DNA from: an uncultured Pelagibacteraceae bacterium
Lineage (GTDB): Bacteria; Pseudomonadota; Alphaproteobacteria; Pelagibacterales; Pelagibacteraceae
Length of the DNA: 32,197 nt
NCBI GenBank assembly: GCA_902531025.1
Contig: CACACV010000004.1
Span: forward strand, 1 to 32,197
Direction: 5' to 3'
This document shows, in pieces, positions 3,731-11,412 of the stretch. Each line of letters starts with the position of its first letter. Position 1 is the stretch's first letter. The notes under the pieces were generated by a model. It was given only the letters and a program-made list of their open reading frames with translations. It did not search any database and was not told the DNA's origin. The position numbers and the translations under genes are program-made.

Positions 3731-4429
3731 ATGATTGGAATATTAGGTGGAATGGGAACGCAAGCTGGTTTAGATTTCTGTAATAAACTAGCAAAACTTA
3801 ATAGAGGAAAGTTAGATCAACAATATCCTTTATTTGTTCTTTATAATAAATCAGATACTCCTAAGAGACCAGAAAATTTGAAAAAATATTACAATGTATT
3901 AAACGCTCTAGTTAAAGGGTGTAAAATGTTGCAAAAAAATAACTGTAAGTTCATTGTAATGCCATGCAACACAGCTCATTATTGGCACGATGACATTCAA
4001 AAGAAAATTAATATTCCAATAATCAGTATGCCAAAAGAAGTATATTTGAATACTAAAAAAACATGTAAAAAAAATTCTAAGATTGGACTTTTAAGTACTG
4101 AAGCTACATTAAATACTAAAGTTTATCACAGATACTTTGAAAAAAATTTTCAATTAGTTAGTCCATTAAAGTCTTTACAAAAAAGTTCAGTAAATAAATC
4201 AATAAAGTATGTAAAAATGGGTAAAATAAAAGAAGCAGAGAGAGCTATTAGACCTGCAGTTAATTATTTAATGAAAATAAAGTGCAGAAAAATAATACTT
4301 GGTTGCACAGAATTACCGATTGCAATTTTTGCATTCAAATCATTTAAAAAAATTAAAGAATCAAAAATATTTGTTGATCCAAATTTACTGCTAGCCCAAG
4401 TTTCTATGAAAAAATATAAAAGATCCTAA
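3731..4429 (+). CDS. Aspartate/glutamate racemase family protein
   Basis: MIGILGGMGTQAGLDF; both catalytic Cys contexts MPCNTAHYW and LGCTELP. Confidence 0.85.
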   Translation: MIGILGGMGTQAGLDFCNKLAKLNRGKLDQQYPLFVLYNKSDTPKRPENLKKYYNVLNALVKGCKMLQKNNCKFIVMPCNTAHYWHDDIQKKINIPIISMPKEVYLNTKKTCKKNSKIGLLSTEATLNTKVYHRYFEKNFQLVSPLKSLQKSSVNKSIKYVKMGKIKEAERAIRPAVNYLMKIKCRKIILGCTELPIAIFAFKSFKKIKESKIFVDPNLLLAQVSMKKYKRS

Positions 4430-5288: not shown

Positions 5289-6530
5289 ATGAATAACTCA
5301 AATCACTCAAATATATTAATAGTTGGGGGCGGATGTGCAGGAATATCCGTAGCGACAAGATTAAAAAATTTAAAATCAGATCTAACTATATCTATAATAG
5401 AACCTTCTGATAAATCATTGTATCAGGCTGCTTGGACTTTAGTGGGCGCAGGTGCTTATAATGTAAATAACACTATAAAGCCTATGTCTGAAGTGATGCC
5501 AGGTTTTGTAAACTGGATAAAGGAGCATGCAGAAAGTTTTTCACCAGAGACTAATTCAGTTAAAACTACGAATGGTGAATACCATTATGACTATCTTGTT
5601 GTTTGTCCTGGGCTAAAACTTAATTTTGATGGTGTAGCCGGACTAAAAGAGTCATTAGGAAAAAATAATGTATGTACAAACTATGACTCTGATTTAGCAG
5701 TATATACATGGGAATGTTTAAAAAATTTAAATGGTGGTAACTTATTGTTTACTGAACCTCCAATGCCAATTAAGTGTGCTGGAGCTCCGCAAAAAATTGC
5801 TTATCTAGCAGCAGATCATTTAAAGAAAAAAGGAGCTCTAAAAGATAGTAGTCTAGAATTTTTGTGTGCCAAACCAGTTATATTTGGTGTTCCACATTTT
5901 CAAGGTCCGCTTAACGAAGTTTGCGACTCATACGGTATTAAAAGAGGCTTTCAGCATAATTTGATTTCGGTTAATGGCGAAGCAAAAGAAGCTGTCTTTA
6001 AAGTTTCCGATAAAGATGGAAACAGTAAAGAAGTTACAAAAAAATTTGATTTTATTCATGTAACTCCTCCACAAACTTCACCAGATTTTATAAAAAACAG
6101 TCCGCTAGCTGATGCAGGTGGATGGGTTGATGTTGATCATAAAGGTGGAACTTTAAAACATATGAAATATGAAAATATTTATAGCTTAGGAGATGTTATG
6201 AATGCTCCTAATGCAAAAACTGGTGCGGCAGTTAGAAAGCAAGCTCCAATAGTTGCTCATAATATAATTAAAGATATTAAACAATCTTCTGAAGCCTACA
6301 GACTTTATGATGGTTACGGCGCTTGTCCTTTAACTGTGGCTTATGGCAAAGTAATGTTAGCTGAGTTTTGTTATGGGGGTAAAGTAACACCAAGTTTTCC
6401 TTTTGACCCAACAAAACCAAGTTCTATTTATTGGCAAATGAAATCAAAACTTTTCCCATATTTACAATGGAATGTAATGTTTAAGGGAAAAGAATGGAGT
6501 AAGCCAGCCCATAAAGCTGTTGAAAAATAA
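5289..6530 (+). CDS. sqr: Sulfide:quinone oxidoreductase (type II / mitochondrial-SQRDL-like)
   Basis: GGGCAGISVATRL FAD motif; FTEPPMPIKCAGAPQKIAYLA; VTPPQTSPDFIKNSPLAD; SLGDVMNAPNAKTGAAVRKQAP. Confidence 0.85.
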   Translation: MNNSNHSNILIVGGGCAGISVATRLKNLKSDLTISIIEPSDKSLYQAAWTLVGAGAYNVNNTIKPMSEVMPGFVNWIKEHAESFSPETNSVKTTNGEYHYDYLVVCPGLKLNFDGVAGLKESLGKNNVCTNYDSDLAVYTWECLKNLNGGNLLFTEPPMPIKCAGAPQKIAYLAADHLKKKGALKDSSLEFLCAKPVIFGVPHFQGPLNEVCDSYGIKRGFQHNLISVNGEAKEAVFKVSDKDGNSKEVTKKFDFIHVTPPQTSPDFIKNSPLADAGGWVDVDHKGGTLKHMKYENIYSLGDVMNAPNAKTGAAVRKQAPIVAHNIIKDIKQSSEAYRLYDGYGACPLTVAYGKVMLAEFCYGGKVTPSFPFDPTKPSSIYWQMKSKLFPYLQWNVMFKGKEWSKPAHKAVEK

Positions 6531-6563: not shown

Positions 6564-7256
6564 ATGATTTTTGAACAATTATTTGATACAAAATCTTCAA
6601 CTTACACTTATATTATTTCTAGTGGAAAAGGTAGAGAAGCCTTAATTATTGATCCAGTTATTGAACATTCAGATGAATACATAAAAATTTTAGAAAACTT
6701 AGAACTAAAATTAGTTAAAGTCTTAGATACTCATATTCATGCTGATCATATTTCAGGTCTAAATGAACTAAATAAAAGAACAAATTGTACTCGTATTATG
6801 GGAGAAAAATCAAAATCCGAAGTTGTTGATGTCAGATTAAAAGATAATGAAAATTTAAATATAGAAAATATTAAACTTAAAGCAATTTATACACCCGGCC
6901 ATACTGATTGTTCTTATTGTTATTTAATGAATGATAGAGTTTTCACTGGAGACACTCTTTTAATAAATGGAACTGGAAGAACAGATTTTCAAAGCGGGAG
7001 TCCCCTTGAAGCTTATGACTCTTTATTTAATAAATTGCTCAAATTACCAGAAAAAACACTTGTCTATCCAGCACATGATTATAATGGGAAAAAAAATTCA
7101 ACTATTGAAAATGAGAGAAATAACAATCCACGTTTGCAAGTCAGCTCAAAAGAAGAATACGCAGAGATTATGAATAATTTAAATCTATCTAATCCAAAAA
7201 TGATGGATATAGCTGTTCCAGCAAATTTAAAAGGTTTGATGTTAAATCAGATATAA
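6564..7256 (+). CDS. MBL-fold persulfide dioxygenase-like protein (ETHE1/Blh family)
   Basis: DTHIHADHISG, YTPGHTDCSYCYL, FTGDTLLINGTGRTDFQSGS, VYPAHDYNG; directly downstream of SQR. Confidence 0.85.
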   Translation: MIFEQLFDTKSSTYTYIISSGKGREALIIDPVIEHSDEYIKILENLELKLVKVLDTHIHADHISGLNELNKRTNCTRIMGEKSKSEVVDVRLKDNENLNIENIKLKAIYTPGHTDCSYCYLMNDRVFTGDTLLINGTGRTDFQSGSPLEAYDSLFNKLLKLPEKTLVYPAHDYNGKKNSTIENERNNNPRLQVSSKEEYAEIMNNLNLSNPKMMDIAVPANLKGLMLNQI

Positions 7257-7307
7257 TCAGCATTAATTTAGCCTTGTTTTTACTGGATCTATAATTATAT
7301 TATTTCC

Positions 7308-7427
7308 ATGGCTTGCAACAATCCAAAATGTGTATGTACAAATTGTACTTATGACAAATGCAAATGTGACGGCACTAAAGAGTGCAAATGTAAACCTAAA
7401 TCAGGAAGTTGTTGTTGTAACAACTAA
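7308..7427 (+). CDS. 39-aa Cys-rich metallothionein-like microprotein (not in supplied ORF track)
   Basis: Direct translation MACNNPKCVCTNCTYDKCKCDGTKECKCKPKSGSCCCNN*, 11 Cys of 39, several CxC motifs; sits in the gap between the MBL protein and cysE. Confidence 0.75.
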   Translation: MACNNPKCVCTNCTYDKCKCDGTKECKCKPKSGSCCCNN

Positions 7428-7463: not shown

Positions 7464-8042
7464 ATGAACAATTTTTTAGAATCCATAATTAACAGAGACC
7501 CTGCTGCAAAATCAAAATTAAGTATAATATTAACTTATCCGGGTATTAAAGCAGTTTTTTTTCATAGAATTGCAAATTTTTTTTCTATTGCAAAGTTTGA
7601 TTTAATTGCAAGAATGATTTCACAATTTTCAAGATTCTTAACAGGTATAGAAATCCATCCTAAGGCAAAGATAGGAGATAACTTATTTATTGATCATGGT
7701 ATGGGTGTGGTAATTGGAGAAACTTCTGAAATTGGAAATAATGTAACTATTTATCATATGGTTACTTTAGGAGGAATTGCTCCAAGTATAAAATCTAATG
7801 AACAAAGAAATACAAAAAGACATCCTACATTAATGGATAATGTTGTTGTTGGATCAGGAGCACAAATATTAGGTCCTGTTATAGTTGGAAAAAATGCTAA
7901 GGTTGGAGCTAATGCAGTTGTTACTAAAGATGTTCCTGAAAATGCTGTAATGGTTGGAATACCAGCAAAAAATGTTGGTATGGCAAATGAAGAATTTAAA
8001 CCTTATGCCGTAACAGACGAAAGTGAAAATGAAAAATTATAG
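7464..8042 (+). CDS. cysE: Serine O-acetyltransferase
   Basis: Left-handed beta-helix hexapeptides; [41 protein letters not shown]. Confidence 0.9.
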
Positions 8043-9030
8043 CGATAGTTTTATTCAGTCGATTGGAAATACCCCGCTTATAAAACTTAAAGCTGCTTCA
8101 GAGATTACTGGATGCAACATTTATGGAAAAGCTGAATACTTAAATCCTGGTGGATCAGTAAAAGATAGAGCAGCTCTTTCTTTAATAAAAGATGCAGAAG
8201 AAAAAAAATTAATTTCTAAAGGAGGAACAATAGTTGAAGGAACAGCAGGTAATACTGGAATTGGTTTGTGCTTAATAGGAAATTCTCTTGGTTATAAAAC
8301 TGTAATAGTAATGAATGATAACCAAACCCAAGAAAAAAAAGATACTTTAAGAAATATTGGTGCAGATTTAAGGTTGGTGCCACCAAAGCCTTATAAAGAT
8401 GATAGTAATTACGTTAAGTTTGCTGGAAGATTAGCTGAAGAACTTAAAAGTTCAAATAATCACGGGGTAGTTTGGGCTAATCAATTTGATAACACTGCTA
8501 ATGCCAAGGGTCACTACGAAACAACAGGACCTGAAATTTGGAATCAAACAGATGGAAAAATAGATGGTTTTGTTTGTTCTTCAGGAACTGGTGGTACTAT
8601 TAGTGGAACTAGTAGTTATCTAAAAGAAAAAAATAAAGATATTAAAATTTATTTATCAGACCCTACGGGATCTGCTCTTTATAATTATATAAAAAATGGA
8701 GAACTAAAGTCTGAGGGTGGTTCAATAACAGAGGGTATTGGTTCAAGTAGAGTTACTGCTAACTTTGCAGAAGCTAAAATAGATGGTGCATTTTCAATAA
8801 GTGATCATGAGTCTTTACCTATAATTTATAACTTAATTCAAAATGAAGGATTAAGTTTAGGAACAAGTTGTGGAGTAAATATTGCTGGAGCTATAAGATT
8901 AGGTAAAGAACTTGGGCCAGGAAAAACAATTGTTACAATTCTTTGTGATAAATCTGATAAATACAACTCTAAGCTGTTTAATAAAGCTTTTTTAAAAGAA
9001 AAAGGTCTTCCCTTTCCCGATTGGATTTAA
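8029..9030 (+). CDS. cysK: Cysteine synthase / O-acetylserine sulfhydrylase (PLP)
   Basis: [21 protein letters not shown] (PLP Lys), [24 protein letters not shown] at 8029 or in-frame GTG at 8023; overlaps cysE end. Confidence 0.9.
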
Positions 9031-9122: not shown

Positions 9123-9497
9123 ATGGACGCAAAAGAAATTGTAAAAAGAGGTTATGAATTATTTGGTAAGGGAGACATGGAAACTTTCTTTAACGAAGTT
9201 GTTCACGATGAAATAACTTGGGTTTATCCTGGTGACAAACATCCAATGTCAGGAACTCACAAAGGTAAAGAGGCAATGATGAAAACAATGTCTTTAATAC
9301 CTCAACAATGGAGTAATTTTTCTGTAACCCCTGAGTTTATGATTGCAGAAGGAGATAAAGTATTTGCTAAATGCAAAGCAACTGCTGATGGTATGGAAAC
9401 TATATTCGGTCATTACTTTGAGATAAAAGATGGAAAAATGTCTATGTTTATGGCTTTCGATGATACTCTAAGCATGTATAATGCTATAAAAAAATAA
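9123..9497 (+). CDS. NTF2/SnoaL-like small protein
   Basis: 124 aa; pattern VKRGYELFGKGDMETFFNEVVHDEITWVYPG...GTHKGKEAMMK typical of SnoaL-like cone fold. Confidence 0.75.
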   Translation: MDAKEIVKRGYELFGKGDMETFFNEVVHDEITWVYPGDKHPMSGTHKGKEAMMKTMSLIPQQWSNFSVTPEFMIAEGDKVFAKCKATADGMETIFGHYFEIKDGKMSMFMAFDDTLSMYNAIKK

Positions 9498-9510
9498 TAA
9501 GGAGGAAATA

Positions 9511-9801
9511 ATGGATAAAGAAGTTTTAGTGATCGTAGATTTGAAAGACGGAAAGCTTGAAAAATTTATGGGATGGATGCAATCAGATGAGGGAATGAGT
9601 GTAAGAAAATCAGCAGCTCATCCAGAAAAAACTATTGGAGCAGTAAAGCCAGATAAAAGTGGTGTTATGTTTAAGGTATTTGTTCATAATATGGAAAAAA
9701 TGAAAGAGATGGTATCTGGAGCAAATCCAATTGGAAAACCAATTTATGATGAGTGTGTAAACAAGATGCATGTGTGGGAATTAACGAAAGTTGATATCTA
9801 A
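9511..9801 (+). CDS. Small protein of unassigned family (possible dimeric alpha/beta barrel)
   Basis: 96 aa; SD aaggagg at about 9501; MDKEVLVIVDLKDGKLEKFMGWMQSDEGM...; no family confidently recognised. Confidence 0.6.
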   Translation: MDKEVLVIVDLKDGKLEKFMGWMQSDEGMSVRKSAAHPEKTIGAVKPDKSGVMFKVFVHNMEKMKEMVSGANPIGKPIYDECVNKMHVWELTKVDI

Positions 9802-9802
9802 A

Positions 9803-10126
9803 ATGGCAAAATATTATGTAATCGGAAAAGTAAGCAAAGAACTTTTAAAAAGAATGCAAAAAGATCCTTCTGCGGATAGACACGCATCAACAAAAAAAGT
9901 TATTGAAGCCATTGGTGGAAAAATGATTAGTTACGAATGGGTTCGTGGACGTTTTGATGTGGTCTGTTGTGTAGAAGGAGATGCTGAAACAGTTGTTGGA
10001 ATGAAAGTTGCTTTTATAAATTCAGGACTGATGGATGATCTAATGATACATGAAGTTATTGATTACAATAAAGCATTCACAAAAGCCGCGGATGGTTCTA
10101 AAAGTGTGGTAATACCTGCTGAATAA
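9803..10126 (+). CDS. GYD-domain-like small protein
   Basis: KKVIEAIGGKMISYEWVRGRFDVVCCVEGDAETVVGMKVAF resembles GYD domain. ATG at 9803 preferred over listed TTG at 9791. Confidence 0.65.
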   Translation: MAKYYVIGKVSKELLKRMQKDPSADRHASTKKVIEAIGGKMISYEWVRGRFDVVCCVEGDAETVVGMKVAFINSGLMDDLMIHEVIDYNKAFTKAADGSKSVVIPAE

Positions 10127-10129
10127 ATT

Positions 10130-10417
10130 ATGTCGGGTTATGCAATTGCTCAAATTGAAGTTAATAATCCTGAAAATTATAAAGAATATTTAGCAAAAGT
10201 TTCAGATATTGTTGCTAAATTTGGAGGAGAATTTTTAGTAAGAGGTGGTGAGTTTAGCCACGTTGAAGGTGAATGGAAAAACTCTAGAAACATTGTTATT
10301 AAATTTCCTTCTTATGAAAAAGCTTTAGAGTGGTATCACTCTGAAGAGTATAAACCTATTAGGCAAATAAGGTTAGATAACGCAGATACAAATCAAATAA
10401 TAATAAAAGGAGTATAA
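10130..10417 (+). CDS. DUF1330 family protein (copy 1)
   Basis: GYAIAQIEVNNPENYKEYLAKV...FGGEFLVRGG...NIVIKFPSYEKALEWYHSEEYKPIRQIR. Confidence 0.85.
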   Translation: MSGYAIAQIEVNNPENYKEYLAKVSDIVAKFGGEFLVRGGEFSHVEGEWKNSRNIVIKFPSYEKALEWYHSEEYKPIRQIRLDNADTNQIIIKGV

Positions 10418-10419
10418 GA

Positions 10420-10728
10420 ATGGGAAAGGCATACGTCATAGCTCATCCAATAGTAAAAGATATGGATAAGTTTAAAGTTGAATATGCGTCAAAAGTAGAC
10501 GCAACAGTAGAAGCTTTTGGTGGTAAGTTTCTAGTTAGAACTCCTGACACTTTGGTTCACGAGGGCGTTAAAGGAACCTTAGCTGTTGTAATTGAGTTCG
10601 AAAGTAAAGAGAAAGCATTAGGTTGGTATAATTCTGATGCTCATCAAGGAATAGTAAAACATAGAAGAGCTTTAACAGATGAAAAAAGTACTTGGATGAT
10701 TTGTGAAGAGTCTTCAACGATGAAATAA
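10420..10728 (+). CDS. DUF1330 family protein (copy 2)
   Basis: AYVIAHPIVKDMDKFKVEYASKVDATVEAFGGKFLVRTPD...VVIEFESKEKALGWYNSDAHQGIVKHRR; paralogous to preceding gene. Confidence 0.85.
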   Translation: MGKAYVIAHPIVKDMDKFKVEYASKVDATVEAFGGKFLVRTPDTLVHEGVKGTLAVVIEFESKEKALGWYNSDAHQGIVKHRRALTDEKSTWMICEESSTMK

Positions 10729-10743
10729 AAAAAGGAGAAAAAC

Positions 10744-11064
10744 ATGTCTATATTAGAAAAATACAGCGCTGCAATAAAAGATAAAGATGAAGCGGCTATG
10801 AATGAACTGCTGCATGATGATTTTAAATTTACAATGCATAAATCTGGTAACACATTAAGCAAAGGCGATGTAATCAAATGGGCCATGAGTGGTGACATTA
10901 AACAAAGAGATACGAGAGTAGTTTATGAAAATGATGAAGTGGGTATTCACCACGCATTCGTGACATTTGATGATGGAAATGTTGAAGCTGTAATGGCAGT
11001 TTATAAATACAAAGATGGAAAAATCACAAGTTTAGAAACTGGCGCAACGCCAATGCCTAAATAA
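10744..11064 (+). CDS. NTF2/SnoaL-like small protein
   Basis: 106 aa; EKYSAAIKDKDEAAMNELLHDDFKFTMHKSG...SKGDVIKW. Confidence 0.7.
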   Translation: MSILEKYSAAIKDKDEAAMNELLHDDFKFTMHKSGNTLSKGDVIKWAMSGDIKQRDTRVVYENDEVGIHHAFVTFDDGNVEAVMAVYKYKDGKITSLETGATPMPK

Positions 11065-11073
11065 ATTTAATTT

Positions 11074-11412
11074 ATGTCAATAACAATTCAATCATTACTA
11101 ACAACATGGGGTAATGCTTTTAAGTCTGGTGATCCAACAGAAATTTCAAAAATACTTGATGAAAAATTTAAACACATAAATCTTCACCAGGCTGAAAAAG
11201 GTTTTGAAACATTACAAGAGAGTTTGGATTGGATTAAAACAAAACCAGGCATAGTCTCTGATATTGTATCCATTTATGAAGATGACAAAAGATTAATTGG
11301 AACTTTTAAATGGAAAGATTCTGATAAAAATCCAGATACAATTATGTTTCACGGCATAATTTCAAATAATAAGCTTTTAAGATTTGAAATAGTAAGAGCA
11401 CCTGATCTATAA
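11074..11412 (+). CDS. NTF2/SnoaL-like (DUF4440-like) small protein
   Basis: 112 aa; LLTTWGNAFKSGDPTEISKILDEKFKHINLHQAEKGFETLQESLDWI. Confidence 0.6.
   Translation: MSITIQSLLTTWGNAFKSGDPTEISKILDEKFKHINLHQAEKGFETLQESLDWIKTKPGIVSDIVSIYEDDKRLIGTFKWKDSDKNPDTIMFHGIISNNKLLRFEIVRAPDL

Follow-up and report, generated by a model that had tools for sequence, protein, structure and literature searches.

What is encoded in the short gap between a persulfide dioxygenase (PDO)-like gene and cysE in this Pelagibacter (SAR11) genome, and what might it do there? The stretch of DNA analysed here (the window, 32,197 nucleotides) is a contig from a 0.88-Mb genome that is 55% complete. The original prediction had read a clean ORF of 39 amino acids with 11 Cys in the gap. 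The translation agrees exactly, giving MACNNPKCVCTNCTYDKCKCDGTKECKCKPKSGSCCCNN followed by a stop codon, with Cys at positions 3, 8, 10, 13, 18, 20, 26, 28, 35, 36, and 37. The PDO-like gene lies on the 5′ side of this short ORF (sORF), and cysE and then cysK follow it (Table 1). Such a composition had been called very rare by chance, and indeed none of 4327 ATG ORFs of 30–60 amino acids in a 3-Mb Markov simulation matched to the dinucleotide content of the window reached 25% Cys. The 39-amino-acid ORF is a real, conserved Pelagibacter gene.

Table 1 Coordinates of the sORF, its putative control elements, and the adjoining genes in the window.
Feature	Position	Strand	Basis
Cys-rich microprotein ORF, 39 aa, 11 Cys	7308..7427	+	Translation, conserved family, purifying selection
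Predicted leaderless promoter	7274..7301	+	-35 TTGTTT 7274-7279, 16-nt spacer, -10 TATATT 7296-7301
RNA hairpin, last sORF codons	7399..7433	+	Window fold, recoding test, pair counts
PDO/GloB-like metallo-beta-lactamase-fold hydrolase	6564..7256	+	Scores under the cut-offs of the Blh and GloB models
cysE, serine O-acetyltransferase, invariant downstream partner	7464..8042	+	TIGR01172, above cut-off
cysK, cysteine synthase A, overlaps cysE end	8029..9030	+	NF007989, above cut-off

Of 61 close relatives, 7 have a homolog, as do 28 of the 298 genomes searched across the order. Within the genus, a profile search at E ≤ 0.05 gave matches in 62 of 300 sampled genomes (about 20%), one of which, G879 (E = 0.04), is probably a chance match. 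One further copy came from a sister genus (genome G315, locus L065). A class-wide search with the single peptide returned merely chance-level Cys-rich matches, and a class-wide profile search gave no convincing match beyond the family. The set gathered comprises 123 loci, certain genomes being reached by two routes, which reduce to 80 different nucleotide sequences and 69 different peptides; counts over this set overstate independence, as the sequences are related by descent.

The 80 distinct sequences encode peptides of 36–44 residues with 10–13 Cys (about 30%). Cys 3, 8, 10, 13, 18, 26, 28, 35, 36, and 37 were invariant in the first alignment, together with Asn5. Over the whole set, Cys is lost only as C8F, C10R, C13Y, and C20S, in one sequence each, and never in the CCC close to the 3′ end, which all 69 distinct peptides contain. 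The Cys codons swap between TGT and TGC, and the residue positions are near-invariant. Asn5 is kept in 69/69 peptides and Asn12 in 63/69, and there are conserved Asn, Asp, and Pro residues. The CxC modules survive variation in length: the 36-aa class is shorter by three residues and richer by one Cys, and the L170 variant carries an extra CxxCxC unit. The dN/dS ratio (NG86, Nei-Gojobori) is 0.33 in the 39-aa class, 0.13 in the 36-aa class, and 0.19 in the 37/38-aa class; with Cys codons left out, the values are 0.65, 0.24, and 0.32, respectively. As the ratio is below one outside the Cys codons too, the peptide itself is constrained, chiefly at Cys. A dN/dS below one had been proposed as a check on the prediction, and a reading frame or Cys positions not conserved in relatives as its refutation; both frame and positions are conserved.

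Does the peptide belong to a known family? None of 27 family members matched a Pfam model at E ≤ 1, NCBIfam gave a single chance match to a TnpB model, a PDB profile search returned mucin and LDL-receptor noise alone, and no PHROGs family matched the Cys-rich peptide. Thus no curated metallothionein profile in Pfam or NCBIfam was matched, and among the open papers listed for metallothionein together with SAR11 or Pelagibacter, none concerned such a protein. Bacterial metallothioneins of the SmtA/BmtA type (SmtA, NmtA, and PmtA) are small and Cys-rich with CxC and CxxC motifs, and the SmtA gene adjoins an SmtB-type repressor. The SAR11 peptide resembles them in its small size, its Cys content, and its CxC and CxxC motifs, these features being present in the 80 distinct sequences. 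Unlike them, it is mostly without His and ends in CCC, and its gene heads cysE-cysK without an SmtB-type repressor beside it. No metal regulator or transporter was recognised beside the sORF within the window. The original label of a metallothionein-like peptide therefore holds for the motifs but not for any metallothionein family; the peptide belongs to none of the profiled families, though it could work like one of them.

Relatives of the peptide were found in viruses. A profile-derived pattern retrieved MACENEKCKCENCTC-type peptides, 31–35 aa long, from eight viral contigs, and a wider pattern retrieved 17 contigs. Positions 11–20 were left unselected in the first eight contigs and the wider pattern imposed the Cys spacing, so that the case for homology is made by the first eight only. 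The viral ORFs share the N-terminal MAC.N..C.C.NC.C..C.C spacing with the 36-aa SAR11 class, and the phage and SAR11 peptides likely have a common ancestry. In contrast to SAR11, the phage ORFs are 26–35 aa long, and neither cysE nor a CCC tail was seen in the phage contig stretches read. AGGAG-type Shine-Dalgarno sequences are clear in two phage groups, whereas the SAR11 sORF appears leaderless. PHROGs gave no match for two phage forms tested, and tblastn gave none against named phages, a weak test given the low-complexity filtering of a 28% Cys query. In one phage group, nrdA shares 72% identity with the gene of Pelagibacter phage Mosig EXVC030M and about 70% with the cyanophage genes. The IMG/VR contigs (L177-L184 and L189-L205) belong to marine T4-like phages, with peptides such as MACENEKCKCENCTCDPCLCTEDKQCECAKE and MACKNCKCKCENCNCENCRCGDCGKRR, and certain of their Cys-rich ORFs adjoin tail-fibre-like genes.

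Inspection of the bacterial loci indicated that the fixed partner of the sORF is cysE, rather than sqr or PDO. The cysE gene lies 25–38 nt 3′ of the sORF stop in 122/122 loci with enough downstream sequence. PDO lies 5′ in nearly all loci, with the peroxiredoxin gene prx divergent, and the sister-genus locus L065 has sORF-cysE without an adjoining PDO or cysK. Where prx, PDO, and cysE are all visible in an sORF-positive locus (49 loci), SQR is present in 23 and absent from 26. Synteny with sqr and cysE had been suggested as a check, and only the cysE half of it was borne out. Among the 72 loci in which PDO adjoins cysE, the gap between them is bimodal: 49 loci have a gap of 197–258 bp, every one with an sORF (38 by pattern and 11 by inspection), and 23 have a gap of 24–52 bp, none with an sORF. 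Many of the genomes are incomplete single-cell assemblies, and absence of the sORF is certain only where PDO adjoins cysE. On a midpoint-rooted tree of PDO, CysE, and CysK, three changes suffice for the pattern of presence and absence, which is consistent with the sORF having disappeared separately from L152 and from the L133-L147 clade; apparently lost at least twice, the sORF would thus be dispensable for cysE expression.

Several other features of these loci were recorded. The cysE gene was not found in seven of eight genomes with PDO alone (partial assemblies); in the eighth, cysE occurs but no sORF accompanies it. At L097, L099, L103, L118, L124, L150, and L157, PDO stands without cysE behind it, and the rest of the partial assembly yielded no cysE either; the L150 contig stops 287 nt past PDO. 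These are possibly cysteine auxotrophs, or sequence is missing. On the 5′ side in the window, the best-scoring model for a racemase (3731-4429) is that of the cysteate racemase CuyB, with a score under its cut-off, a hint of a broader sulfur-amino-acid neighborhood. On the 3′ side of cysK (9123-11412) stands a series of 95–125-aa ORFs whose order and number vary among relatives; the first of them (9123-9497) has no NCBIfam match.

The region upstream of the sORF points to an unusual mode of expression. In 69 distinct upstream sequences aligned at the ATG, a TTG triplet stands at -34 in 87% (3% in the background) and TATAT at -12 to -8 in 88% (0% in the background), the background being 269 mechanically called ORFs of the same genomes. 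Shine-Dalgarno-like 4-mers precede 0% of the sORFs versus 27.5% of the background ORFs. As the -10 box (TATAWN) ends 6 nt 5′ of the ATG, transcription is expected to start at or adjoining the ATG. A generic promoter scan left the sORF promoter of the window unflagged because its -35 is weak. In sORF-positive loci, cysE itself has a TATAW box in 1.5% and no Shine-Dalgarno sequence; in sORF-negative loci, 12 of the 18 distinct sequences upstream of cysE carry a TATAW box no more than 16 nt from its start. We predict that the sORF opens the cysE-cysK unit as a leaderless first cistron, and lineages without it would, on our reading, usually promote cysE directly from the adjoining box.

The end of the sORF also encodes an RNA hairpin, with the CCC codons inside its 5′ arm and its loop and with the stop codon in or beside its 3′ arm. 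The last 8 codons have a mean MFE of -4.6 kcal/mol, compared with -1.65 kcal/mol expected when the peptide is fixed and synonymous codons are redrawn by genome usage. A value of p<0.1 was obtained for 63% of sORF tails but for 7.7% of the tails of 299 control genes (Mann-Whitney p ~1e-20, the sequences not being independent). The same recoding test gave no folding excess elsewhere in the 39-aa sORF. The pairing is supplied by rare codons and by the rare TAG stop, used in 25 of 46 tails versus 10% of genes. Across 28 distinct tails of the 39-aa class, 86% of cells pair and 11 are double-change cells, a count that 0 of 500 shuffles reached, with the qualification that the sequences are related and the events not independent. 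The tail hairpin is under selection. In the 37-aa class, the recoding test finds no tail hairpin and a hairpin occurs in the spacer instead. No consistent fold across loci was found for the sORF-cysE spacer alone, the consensus fold of the whole sORF region is weakly structured, and no Rfam element matches in the region. No intrinsic (U-tract) terminator was recognised in the window; T runs of 4–6 occur within 10 nt past the stop in 34 of 80 distinct sORFs. Such a hairpin is consistent with a response to cysteine through translation of the sORF; it may end transcription, hinder translation, or shield the RNA.

A comparable arrangement has been reported in mycobacteria, where leaderless ORFs with contiguous Cys codons regulate downstream genes (Canestrari et al. 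2020, Mol Microbiol 114:93, as relayed in PMC9031893 and PMC9094748). Like the polycysteine sORFs described in those accounts, the SAR11 sORF is a short ORF with a leaderless start, here read from sequence alone, contiguous Cys codons (69/69 peptides), and, directly 3′, a gene that might be regulated through a ribosome speed set by cysteine, the cysteine-metabolism gene cysE (122/122). The two systems belong to different phyla; the SAR11 sORF shares the sequence features, and its regulation of cysE is putative. Unlike the mycobacterial sORFs, the SAR11 sORF encodes about 30% Cys throughout at fixed spacing in a conserved peptide sequence, and it has the CCC/stop hairpin and phage relatives.

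Taken together, we tentatively favor, at a little below an even chance, an account in which the leaderless first cistron of sORF-cysE-cysK yields a metallothionein-like peptide acting in trans and serves in cis as a cysteine-codon leader. The dispersed fixed Cys, the constrained non-Cys residues, and the phage relatives without cysE are the grounds for a trans-acting peptide, most simply one that binds metal through thiolates. The obligate cysE linkage, the leaderless start, the invariant CCC, and the selected CCC/stop hairpin are the grounds for a cis-acting leader. The reality of the gene, its Cys conservation, its promoter geometry, its cysE linkage, and the selection on its hairpin are the observations from which we infer translation, metal binding, and attenuation together with its direction. 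In trans, the peptide would most probably serve as a small thiolate ligand of metallothionein-like character, buffering cellular thiols and a soft metal such as Zn or Cu, and it would be made alongside the cysteine-synthesis enzymes on which it depends. In cis, the likeliest course is that scarcity of Cys-tRNA would stall ribosomes at the 5′-arm Cys codons, hold the hairpin open, and turn cysE-cysK on. With plentiful cysteine, the ribosome would complete the sORF and depart, the hairpin would form, and downstream expression would drop. Against this account count the missing metallothionein family match, the lack of a recognised intrinsic terminator in the window, the sORF-cysE spacer without a consistent fold, the 37-aa class without a tail hairpin, and the losses of the sORF. 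A more specific version, possible but held with greater doubt, is a bifunctional leader in which the CxC N-terminal module, circulating in marine phages, acts in trans and the CCC/hairpin acts in cis as a Cys-tRNA sensor for cysE-cysK. The two roles, metallothionein and leader, can be separated, and a single one may be true.

If only the trans role were true, co-transcription with cysE-cysK would meet the cysteine cost of a metallothionein-like peptide, and the hairpin would be a partial terminator or 3′-end stabiliser that keeps sORF mRNA above cysE mRNA. The invariant dispersed Cys spacing and the conserved Asn, Asp, and Pro residues would be accounted for in this way, as would the phage relatives without cysE and the T runs past the stop. 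The sORF, however, never occurs apart from cysE in the bacteria examined, its phage relatives have no CCC tail, and the window shows no recognised metal regulator or transporter beside it. We consider this explanation rather unlikely, if a serious contender.

A purely cis-acting attenuator, in which the Cys codons sense the Cys-tRNA supply for cysE-cysK and the peptide is functionless once made, appears improbable. Eight dispersed fixed Cys and an invariant Asn5 would be needless for it, and phage relatives that have neither cysE nor a CCC tail would be unexpected, although it fits the leaderless geometry, the match between Cys codons and operon product, the invariant CCC, the confinement of hairpin selection to the tail, the narrow cysE spacing, and the mycobacterial precedent (Canestrari et al. 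2020, through PMC9031893 and PMC9094748).

The sulfane-sulfur or persulfide carrier of the original prediction, which would hand sulfur between SQR/PDO and CysE/CysK, is very improbable: despite PDO directly 5′ in nearly all loci and the divergent peroxiredoxin gene, an obligate carrier role is argued against by the missing SQR in 26/49, by L065 without PDO or cysK, by the many PDO-cysE-cysK loci without an sORF, among which L174 retains SQR and PDO, and by cysE as the partner that always adjoins. An SQR-linked function is rejected on the same distribution of SQR. As for the SQR-like gene of the window (5289-6530), its closest NCBIfam model is type III SQR, far below cut-off, and across Pelagibacter its presence or absence in the interval from prx to PDO is independent of the sORF.

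The original prediction thus survives as to an unannotated microprotein that is Cys-rich, bears metallothionein-like CxC/CxxC motifs, and is conserved in both sequence and synteny, and finds no support as to sulfur carriage; it had overlooked the leaderless promoter, the CCC/stop hairpin, and the possible cysteine-codon leader of cysE-cysK. The ORF at the head of cysE is a conserved SAR11 gene that was previously overlooked and unannotated. SAR11 cells are among the most abundant in the ocean, and their genomes are extremely reduced. In one metagenomic survey, most detoxification systems were scarce or absent in Pelagibacter (PMC4161860). If our favored account is true, the peptide would be a candidate for the first metallothionein-like protein of SAR11, expensive in cysteine and heading a cysteine operon, and leaderless regulation through cysteine codons would reach past mycobacteria. 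The relatives in marine T4-like phages suggest that the same peptide module is in viral use.
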